Part shown: one piece after another, positions 11,110 to 14,271 of the stretch
How positions within the stretch are numbered: the first letter of the stretch is position 1
Layout: each line of letters opens with the position of its first letter
Origin: Candidatus Taylorbacteria bacterium RIFCSPHIGHO2_01_FULL_46_22b
GTDB taxonomy: Bacteria; Patescibacteriota; Minisyncoccia; Phycocordibacterales; DSPV01
DNA length: 42,846 bases
Assembly: GCA_001820875.1 (NCBI GenBank)
Contig: MHRF01000003.1
Span: 1-42,846 of the forward strand
Reading direction: 5' to 3'
The notes under the pieces: generated by a model
The model's input: only the letters and a program-made list of their open reading frames with translations
The model's database searches: none
Told to the model about the DNA's origin: nothing
Position numbers and translations under genes: made by a program

Positions 11110-11880
11110 TTAACTCTTCCCTTGTTCGGCCAAGAAAGCCGCGCCATGGCCAAATTGGGTGTTGATTGGAACTCCTGCTCTGCAGAGGCCATGATCTGCA
11201 CACTCCTCTCTGGTGAAGATCTGACGCTTCACTCTCAAGAGAGACTCGAGTCGAAAAACTCCAAGATCATCTGCCGTAACGCCCCCACCCTCCACCAGCG
11301 CGCCAACACCGACAAGGATACCGCCGGCTGCCTTGATGGCATCGGCAGTACCTCGGGCAGACAAACCAGTTGTGAGAGTGTCCTCAACGGCGAGCACTCG
11401 CTTCCCTTTCACATCGGCAGCAAAACCCCTTTTCAGAACGAAGGAGGTCTTCACAACGACAAGCTTTTCGCCTGGAAACAGACGGAGTACGTCTGTCGCG
11501 TCGTCATGTTTATGCCAAGGCAACTTGATGACAACTGGTTTTGACCCTGGTTCGCATTGCGCTTCGATTGTCTCAAGATGTTCAGAGTAGAGTGCCAGTA
11601 CTTCAGGGCGATCCGGACGGAGCTGCGACAAGTGGTATGCAGTCCATTGAGACAGTGCGATGGCGCCGACCGCTGGGGCAACCACCACGTCCACGTCTTC
11701 TTGAGCAAAACGCCTGGCAATCTCGAGACATAATTCAAACGAAACGCTCGTGAGACGTGTTGCGCGATCTTTGGCGACATACAACGAGAGATGTTTGCCA
11801 CTAGTACCAACAAAATGGCCTTCGATCACCGCGCCCGTTGAAGCGAGAATCTCACGCACTCGATCGGGAGAAAGGATCAT
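11110..11880 (-). CDS. pyrE: Orotate phosphoribosyltransferase-like protein
   Basis: PRPP motif VLAVEDTLTTGLSARG; coupled to OMP decarboxylase-like gene (11877 overlap). Confidence 0.75.
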   Translation of the reverse strand: MILSPDRVREILASTGAVIEGHFVGTSGKHLSLYVAKDRATRLTSVSFELCLEIARRFAQEDVDVVVAPAVGAIALSQWTAYHLSQLRPDRPEVLALYSEHLETIEAQCEPGSKPVVIKLPWHKHDDATDVLRLFPGEKLVVVKTSFVLKRGFAADVKGKRVLAVEDTLTTGLSARGTADAIKAAGGILVGVGALVEGGGVTADDLGVFRLESLLRVKRQIFTREECADHGLCRAGVPINTQFGHGAAFLAEQGKS

Positions 11881-12641
11881 GACTGACCTCCTTTCCCAAA
11901 TTCTATCGCCTGCGCGATCCGAACATTGAGTGCTTCCGCCGCATCACGCGGGGGAAGTTTCGGATTTCTGAGAATCTCATTGCCAATGACTAGCCAGTCG
12001 GCGCCGTTTTCAATCGCCACCTCCTGTGTCTCAACATTCTTCTGATCCTGATGTTCTGCTCCTGGAGAACGCGTCCCGGGAATGACCTTGATCAGGTTGC
12101 CCAACTGAACTTCAGGATGCTCCTTCCGGCCAGAGTATCTGGCCAGAAATGCAAGTTCCTTGGGTGAACAGATAAGTCCGTCACATCTGGTGTACGCTGC
12201 CATACGAGCCAAGTAGAGCACTTTCGCGTTACGCGAGGCACCGTGGTCAAGTTCGACGTTTTCCGTGTCGTGACTTGTAAGCTCGCTCACGGCAAGAAGG
12301 TCGGCATCACCTTTGTTCGCAACCGCAGCCAACAAGGCCTCCACACCAGAATCGGCGTGAACGTTGATGAACTTGGCACCGTGTTTTGCTGCTTCCCTGA
12401 CGGCTGCGGCAACTGTCCGGGGAACGTCTTTTGGTTTGCCATCCCAGAAGGTCTCAAAACCTAGGGATCGCGCAACCGCAACAACTTCCCCAGCAAGCTG
12501 GGCAGTGATCAGTTCGAGACCAACTTTGACCCATCTGATCTGGTCAACCACTTGCTCCATCACTTTCCGCGCCTCCTCAACAGTCGGCACGTCAAGCGCA
12601 AGGATGATCCGACTACTGTCTCTTGTGTTTGGTTCACTCAT
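11877..12641 (-). CDS. pyrF: Orotidine 5'-phosphate decarboxylase (copy 1)
   Basis: IILALDVP, DGKPKDVPRT (DxKxxD), HAD; start MSEPN at 12641. Confidence 0.85.
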   Translation of the reverse strand: MSEPNTRDSSRIILALDVPTVEEARKVMEQVVDQIRWVKVGLELITAQLAGEVVAVARSLGFETFWDGKPKDVPRTVAAAVREAAKHGAKFINVHADSGVEALLAAVANKGDADLLAVSELTSHDTENVELDHGASRNAKVLYLARMAAYTRCDGLICSPKELAFLARYSGRKEHPEVQLGNLIKVIPGTRSPGAEHQDQKNVETQEVAIENGADWLVIGNEILRNPKLPPRDAAEALNVRIAQAIEFGKGGQS

Positions 12642-12711
12642 AGGAATTCTCCTGTCAAATGTAGGCGTGCGTAAGCATGCCCTGTCCACCACGAATCGCG
12701 TAGCAAACTCT
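12642..12711 (-). ncRNA. Candidate structured 5' leader of pyrF copy 1 / pyrE operon
   Basis: Shares GAGTTTGCTACG(N)GA(N)TCGTGGTGGACA and following hairpin with leader 13616-13687; hairpins at 12684-12708 and 12663-12682. Confidence 0.6.
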
Positions 12712-12717
12712 GGTATC

Positions 12718-12745
12718 AGAGTACTCAAAAATTGGCCGAGGTCAA
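12718..12745 (-). promoter_or_regulatory. Promoter TTGACC-16-TACTCT for pyrF1-pyrE
   Basis: -35 at 12740-12745, -10 at 12718-12723 (minus strand); same arrangement as pyrF2. Confidence 0.55.
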
Positions 12746-12761
12746 ATTATGAAAAGAAAGT

Positions 12762-12789
12762 GGGCGGTGAATGCATGCATTCACCGCCC
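12762..12789 (-). terminator. 28-bp perfect palindrome/terminator GGGCGGTGAATGCATGCATTCACCGCCC after pyrF copy 2
   Basis: Self-complementary, followed by ACTTTCTTTTC on minus strand. Confidence 0.75.
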
Positions 12790-12835
12790 CTTGAAATCCT
12801 TCTATGAAAACAACTAACCTCCCCAATCCTCACAC

Positions 12836-13615
12836 TTAAGCGGGCGGGGTGATCTCCTGAATAATCCTCATCGCCGCTTGGCGTGGATTTTGTGGCAAAC
12901 CCTTTGTGTTGGGTTTTGCATCGGTGATCGGATCACCGACGATAATCCATGTTGCTCCAAGTGCAATCGCTTCGCTTGGAGTAACAGCCTGATCAGCATC
13001 CGGACTATTATCGGAAGCTGTGAACCAATCGGGTCGCACCGTCGGCGCGGCAAACTGCAGTCCAGTGACTCCGGCGTCGAGAACTGCTTGGATATTGCGC
13101 GCTCCAAGCATCAAACCATCAAGCCCTGCCGCCTGCGCCACTTTGGCAAAATGGACGATAGTATCGGCAATTGATCGCCCGTGATGTTGTTCCACTTCTT
13201 TCTCCTGCATATGGTTGAGAAGTGTAACCCCGAGCACCTTGGTCTCACGACTCAATGTTTCCCGAAACACCGTGAGACCTTCTAGACCGCAACTGCACAT
13301 CACGGTCACGAATGCTGGACGAATCTCGTTAAGCAAATGTGCCTCCCTCCGAAGGGTGTCTGGAGAATCGAAGAGCTTGGTGTCAGAAAAAAAACGAAGT
13401 CCGAAGGTCTCAACCATAGGACCTAGTTGATCACACCCAACTGCTCGAGAAAGCGAGTGCACCTTGATACAGAGATCGAGAGATCCGAGGTCTCCTATCA
13501 ACCTCATGGTCTCTTGCCAGACATCTCCAGTTTTCAAAACTCTTGCTGGATCTCTCGCTGGATCAACATCCACTGCCACAATCAATCGCTGAGCTGGTTC
13601 AATATGCATCTTCAT
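12836..13615 (-). CDS. pyrF: Orotidine 5'-phosphate decarboxylase-like protein (divergent copy 2)
   Basis: LIVAVDVDP, SDTKLFDSPDT (DxKxxD), GATWIIVGDPITDA C-terminal phosphate-binding motif; start MKMHIEP at 13615. Confidence 0.75.
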   Translation of the reverse strand: MKMHIEPAQRLIVAVDVDPARDPARVLKTGDVWQETMRLIGDLGSLDLCIKVHSLSRAVGCDQLGPMVETFGLRFFSDTKLFDSPDTLRREAHLLNEIRPAFVTVMCSCGLEGLTVFRETLSRETKVLGVTLLNHMQEKEVEQHHGRSIADTIVHFAKVAQAAGLDGLMLGARNIQAVLDAGVTGLQFAAPTVRPDWFTASDNSPDADQAVTPSEAIALGATWIIVGDPITDAKPNTKGLPQNPRQAAMRIIQEITPPA

Positions 13616-13687
13616 AATCAAGTTCCTCTCAAAGAAAGGTATGCGGGTGCACACCTCTTGTCCACCACGACTCACGTAGCAAACTCC
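13616..13687 (-). ncRNA. Candidate structured 5' leader of pyrF copy 2
   Basis: Homologous to 12642-12711; hairpins at 13660-13684 and 13637-13656. Confidence 0.6.
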
Positions 13688-13694
13688 AGAGAAC

Positions 13695-13722
13695 AGACTA
13701 CTGGGAAACCTGATATAGTCAA
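13695..13722 (-). promoter_or_regulatory. Promoter TTGACT-16-TAGTCT for pyrF2
   Basis: -35 at 13717-13722, -10 at 13695-13700. Confidence 0.55.
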
Positions 13723-13806: not shown

Positions 13807-14271
13807 ATGAACAGTCAAAAATCCCTCCCTACAGAGGAGGCGGTCACGGAAGACTTCCCACCCAAAATGGGGACGTCTGTCGGACTCGGTACGCTCATCT
13901 GGATAGATGGAATTGCCATCATCCTTTGCATCGCCAGCATGTGCGGCGCGTTTTCAAAACAAACCGCCATTATCTCCGGCATCATGACAATCATCCTCAC
14001 GTTCATCCTTCTTTGCTGGTGGATCAAGGGAACAGGGGAAGCAATGATCAACGGGGTTGGTGGAGAAGGTGCCGTTGAAGATGATGACGACATCATCCCT
14101 GATTCGACTCCGCCAAGCACGGTCTCTGGAACACTGGCCGCCATGAAGGTCATAGTCGAAACAGCGCCGGACGATCTTCTGCAAAACCACCGTTCATCAG
14201 ACATCACCGAAAGGGATCGCCGTCGTCACCTACAGGCGGGACGCCCTGAAATGAAGGACTGGGGACCGTAA
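13807..14271 (+). CDS. Two-TM hypothetical membrane protein
   Basis: ATG 13807 preceded by GGAGG; two hydrophobic helices. Confidence 0.65.
   Translation: MNSQKSLPTEEAVTEDFPPKMGTSVGLGTLIWIDGIAIILCIASMCGAFSKQTAIISGIMTIILTFILLCWWIKGTGEAMINGVGGEGAVEDDDDIIPDSTPPSTVSGTLAAMKVIVETAPDDLLQNHRSSDITERDRRRHLQAGRPEMKDWGP

Follow-up and report, generated by a model that had tools for sequence, protein, structure and literature searches.

A shared promoter and 5' hairpin leader upstream of two far-diverged pyrF-like genes in a Candidatus Taylorbacteria genome

Stem-loops at the 5' end of a message stabilise mRNA in several systems, among them the ompA-type 5' UTR and the 5' roadblocks of Bacillus, which give strong stabilisation of mRNA against RNase J1 (PMC3997798). 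At least 90% of Patescibacteria/CPR genomes retain RNase J, an exonuclease working in the 5'-to-3' direction (PMC12641178). Structured leaders of pyr genes are represented by the PyrR attenuators of pyr operons in Firmicutes and by the leaders of pyrC and pyrD in enterobacteria, which act through start-site selection. In the enterobacterial case the Shine-Dalgarno sequence is sequestered by a hairpin. Orphan cis-regulatory RNA motifs and riboswitch candidates are likewise structured leaders on the genes of one pathway, and they recur across genomes with covariation. The leader described here, found upstream of two pyrF-like genes, shares features with each of these systems and differs from each.

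The window is the whole stretch of 42,846 nucleotides analysed from Candidatus Taylorbacteria bacterium RIFCSPHIGHO2_01_FULL_46_22b (contig MHRF01000003.1), and coordinates refer to it. The size of the genome and the style of its genes are in keeping with a Patescibacterium. The gene pyrF1 (11877..12641, minus strand) encodes an orotidine 5'-phosphate decarboxylase of 254 aa that matches PF00215 at 2e-34 and TIGR01740 with 112.6 bits, above the cut-off of 92.3. Its end is overlapped by a gene for a pyrE-like phosphoribosyltransferase (11110..11880, minus strand; PF00156, with pyrE_Therm as the best NCBIfam match at 1.8e-26, under its cut-off), which indicates a pyrF1-pyrE operon. The gene pyrF2 (12836..13615, minus strand) encodes a divergent protein of the OMP decarboxylase superfamily with 259 aa (PF00215, 9.9e-19). 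The DxKxxD motif is retained in pyrF2, although with TIGR01740 the protein scores 58.6 bits, under the NCBIfam pyrF cut-off of 92.3; its activity may have shifted inside the superfamily. The two proteins are 25% identical across 201 aa, and in gapped alignment the coding DNA of the two genes is no closer than shuffled DNA (63.0% versus 63.7%). No close homologue of pyrF2 was found among the other four genomes of the family, which argues for gain in this lineage, and its best relatives in the whole order sample are 35-37% identical. The original prediction had called the two transcription units divergent; in the transcriptional sense they are a tandem on the minus strand, with pyrF1 downstream and a separate promoter for each. 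An inverted repeat with a T-rich tail, GGGCGGTGAATGCATGCATTCACCGCCC (12762..12789, minus strand), is the likely terminator of pyrF2. Opposite pyrF2 lies a small ORF with hydrophobic stretches (13807-14271, plus strand), which matches nothing in NCBIfam and is served by a promoter of its own, TTGACT-16-TAGGAT.

The matching promoters claimed for the two genes are present in the sequence and alignment. For pyrF1 the -35 element TTGACC (12740..12745, minus strand) is separated by a 16-nt spacer from the -10 element TACTCT (12718..12723, minus strand), and for pyrF2 the elements TTGACT (13717..13722, minus strand) and TAGTCT (13695..13700, minus strand) are spaced identically. Each promoter is followed by a leader of ~70 nt that contains a hairpin designated P1, a second designated P2, and then the Shine-Dalgarno sequence. 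P1 begins a fixed few nucleotides past the -10 in both copies. With transcription probably starting ~7 nt past the -10, P1 would set in ~2-5 nt past the start, in pyrF1 ~2-4 nt, and would be 5'-terminal, no more than ~5 nt from the end of the transcript. The Shine-Dalgarno sequence of pyrF1, AGGAG (12649..12653, minus strand), is inside a weak third local hairpin (-5.2 kcal/mol) of a stability ordinary for the genome, and that of pyrF2, GAGAGGA (13624..13630, minus strand), could according to the predicted folding pair with CCTTTC just upstream, overlapping P2. P1 and P2 themselves leave the Shine-Dalgarno sequence free. The pyrF leaders resemble those of enterobacterial pyrC and pyrD in being short with a hairpin near the pyr transcription start, but differ in that the hairpins exclude the Shine-Dalgarno sequence.

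P1 is a stem of 10 bp, identical between the copies, located by exact match and predicted fold at 12684..12708 (minus strand) in the pyrF1 leader as GTTTGCTACG-CGATT-CGTGGTGGAC and at 13660..13684 (minus strand) in the pyrF2 leader as GTTTGCTACG-TGAGT-CGTGGTGGAC. P2 was located by predicted fold at 12663..12682 (minus strand, GGGCATGC-TTAC-GCACGCCT) and 13637..13656 (minus strand, AGGTGTGC-ACCC-GCATACCT), respectively. The 25-base block GTTTGCTACGNGANTCGTGGTGGAC has exactly these two P1 sites in the window; when up to three mismatches were allowed the same two were the only sites across the 921-kb assembly, and no site was obtained in 100 shuffles. In either leader the fold of lowest free energy is P1 together with P2 (-22.1 kcal/mol, z -2.4, and -24.9 kcal/mol, z -2.7, relative to dinucleotide shuffles), with an equal or better fold in 4 of 200 shuffles for each leader. 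The results agree with the conserved hairpin and differing second hairpin of the original prediction. All ten positions of the P1 arms pair as RNA, whereas six of the ten are complementary as DNA. Since the remaining four are all G-U, the arms favour an RNA element.

Alignment of the two copies revealed homology from the -35 to the ATG in islands comprising TTGAC, AGTANTCTG, P1, the P2 stem, TTTGANAGGA and the ATG. The P1 block is identical at 28 of 30 positions, both changes being in the loop, versus 6 of 16 positions for the promoter spacer (Fisher p 9e-5). The spacer, the discriminator and P2 are strongly diverged inside the shared block, P2 having 12 of its 20 bases in common. In P2 the copies differ by one double change of C-G to U-A and by one A-U/G-U change, and copy 1 contains one A-C mismatch. 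The covariation to which the original prediction had looked amounts, in two sequences, to one compensatory pair and one break in P2 and none in the invariant P1. The 25% protein identity combined with the 6/16 spacer indicates that P1 has been kept specifically, and P1 is apparently either under selection or lately homogenised. The leader is far more conserved than the coding sequence, as had been claimed. The comparison also excludes, to judge from the alignments, a recent segmental duplication that took in the genes themselves; the same does not apply to a duplication of the promoter-leader block, which is weighed below.

The explanation that we tentatively prefer, with a confidence somewhat short of even, is that a promoter with a structured 5' leader was duplicated locally and now serves the native pyrF-pyrE operon as well as a second pyrF that looks unrelated, with P1 acting as an mRNA stabiliser. 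The gene pyrF2 would have been acquired in the lineage and come to be driven by a copy of the promoter and leader of pyrF1, or the copying may have gone the other way. The transcript would open with P1 2-5 nt from the 5' end, followed by P2 and then by an open Shine-Dalgarno sequence and start codon. P1 (and P2) would slow 5'-end-dependent decay of the RNase J class and keep the ribosome site clear. The outcome would be high and equal expression of both pyrF genes, for which a ligand switch would be unnecessary. The arrangement is like that of known 5'-terminal stabilisers in having a stem-loop a few nucleotides from the inferred 5' end and an accessible Shine-Dalgarno sequence, and in that orthologues keep the structure in place while its sequence is free. 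It is unlike them in that P1 is identical on two genes with no detectable coding-DNA similarity, and here the stabilising effect is a prediction of the model.

Hairpins in other leaders are in keeping with protection of the message by a 5'-terminal stem-loop. The pyrF leaders of a genome from the same family (G001) and one from the same genus (G003) have a hairpin of unrelated stem sequence 8-11 nt past a TAGTCT/TAGTAT -10, followed in G003 by a second hairpin in tandem. A survey of leaders was conducted over 351 kb of the host genome, in which 83 genes have a good predicted promoter. The leader is 25 nt or less in 35 of the 83 and essentially absent in 22. In the window, leaderless-looking starts were observed at 106, 5359, 8635, 24164, 39623 and 40985, where the -10 ends ~6-8 nt before the ATG. 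A hairpin at the start of the leader was found in 14 of the 38 genes with leaders of 30-110 nt versus 9.2±2.1 in shuffles, while genes with short leaders had 0 versus 2.9 expected. At least four further cases are clear (L120:6061, L132:9220, L129:1892 and window 35397), with hairpins of unrelated sequence directly after a TTGACA...TANNNT promoter, as exemplified by GGACAACG-tatgtg-CGTTGATCC. The genome-wide enrichment, based on predicted promoters, is modest, and the 5'-terminal hairpin as a structural rule for leadered genes is offered as a hypothesis. Such a rule for the pyrF genes of the order was rejected, as hairpins at 4 of 15 loci versus 3.8 by chance are not above chance.

Further instances of the leader were sought with a covariance model built from the two copies and run on 397 genomes of the same order and 384 of the same class, sets which partly overlap. 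Beyond the two known copies, the weak matches were at chance numbers in both sets. Those inspected proved to be terminators, intragenic stretches or chance matches of low score, and downstream of them no pyr gene was recognised; the pyr-linked recurrence foreseen in the original prediction did not emerge in either set. A three-mismatch pattern applied to 297 genomes of the order returned 3-mismatch matches (one with two mismatches) at approximately the level of the reversed-pattern control. Pattern matches in genome contigs were seven, in unrelated taxa, each under a long open frame and thus attributable to chance; such frames include those for valyl-tRNA-synthetase-like proteins in L004 and L007. 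Viral contigs, phages and plasmids gave no match. Sequence of the GTTTGCTACGNGANTCGTGGTGGAC type is absent at the pyrF orthologues of G001 (protein 65%) and G003 (59%), and the host pyrB and pyrD are without the P1 sequence, their leaders being short and hairpin-free or none.

The Rfam search gave no leader match at the gathering threshold, and at E ≤10 just SmY and Yar_3, at chance level. PyrR was not found in the assembly, which is 98.7% complete: PF00156 identified only a ComF-like protein, a fusion of a phosphoribosyltransferase with repeats, and PyrE. The fusion (L113, contig C6 at ~6442 of the host genome) is unusual in that the phosphoribosyltransferase domain is followed by PQQ/WD-type beta-propeller-like repeats in one 472-aa frame, as judged solely from PF00156 and visual inspection. 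The known PyrR loop consensus is not seen in the pyrF leaders, and a literature search for pyrF leaders or riboswitches in these bacteria returned nothing specific. Since there is no Rfam match, no recurrence and no PyrR, and since pyrB and pyrD are without the sequence, the leader belongs neither to a known family nor, as far as these searches show, to a general pyrimidine control. The original prediction had likewise not recognised it as a known pyrimidine attenuator or PyrR site; in common with PyrR attenuators it is a leader RNA of pyr genes, but it has no terminator/antiterminator pair. In contrast to orphan motifs, the pyrF leader was found twice, in one genome. The claim of a functional cis-regulatory RNA is supported only insofar as the two genes have a leader with structure in common; a riboswitch-like element or control of a pyr regulon is not supported, most of the refuting conditions set in the original prediction having gone against it.

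The base-for-base identity of P1, four G-U pairs included, beside a diverged spacer is unexplained by a generic stabiliser because structure, not sequence, suffices for that role. The main rival is a shared binding partner of P1, with a short conversion tract second. The former, possible though doubtful, holds that P1 is the site at which a lineage-specific trans-acting factor, either a small RNA or an RNA-binding protein, would act on both pyrF genes together, the site being kept within a genome while drifting between genomes. It would account for the identity of the copies where spacer and coding sequence are saturated; the non-Watson-Crick positions, all G-U, point to recognition of RNA over DNA, and pyrF1 and pyrF2 both belong to the same pathway step. 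However, P1 has just two sites in the genome and is lacking from pyrB, pyrD and the family orthologues, and no PyrR-type protein is among the phosphoribosyltransferases found. It is rather unlikely that such a partner co-evolves with P1 so fast that genomes of the same genus differ in the hairpin while two non-orthologous OMP decarboxylase genes are co-regulated.

A duplication or gene conversion of fairly recent date, limited to the promoter-leader block and giving P1 no special role beyond that of an ordinary leader, is judged improbable. The block is short, occurs in one genome and precedes neighbouring genes ~1 kb apart whose pyrF proteins are unrelated at the DNA level, all in keeping with such an event. 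Uniform drift after a single event does not match 28/30 in P1 versus 6/16 in the spacer, although a conversion tract of ~40 nt could fit.

A pyrimidine-sensing riboswitch or attenuator, in which P2 or the region past it would switch translation or termination on UMP, UTP or a related metabolite, is very improbable in spite of its apt location upstream of pyrF-pyrE and pyrF, the compensatory change in P2, and the predicted capacity of the 3' arm of pyrF2 P2 to pair alternatively with the Shine-Dalgarno sequence (CCTTTC/GAGAGG). That pairing has no conserved counterpart in pyrF1. Shine-Dalgarno folding is ordinary for the genome, as is the local fold around the start codon, for which reason a Shine-Dalgarno switch was set aside. 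No T-run follows either hairpin of the pyrF1 leader in sequence or fold, leaving P2 without that feature of a terminator, no other instance exists in either genome set, pyrB and pyrD are without the element, and 70 nt with two simple small-loop hairpins leave little room for a ligand pocket. Scarcely credible also is a DNA operator, at which a transcription factor would bind P1 as an imperfect inverted repeat across the transcription start. Although P1 lies just past the -10 at two co-functional genes only, its arms match better as RNA than as DNA and orthologues keep a hairpin and not the sequence.

Overall, the locus gives the impression of a control region duplicated locally, not of a new and widespread RNA switch. 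Gene control in such reduced genomes is little known, and many of the sampled genes appear short-leadered or leaderless. Two far-diverged genes for enzymes of the same step have kept this leader, which makes them a clean natural experiment on the role of a 5' hairpin. If it is true that 5'-terminal hairpins mark the leadered genes of the lineage, they would constitute a simple rule of mRNA stability.
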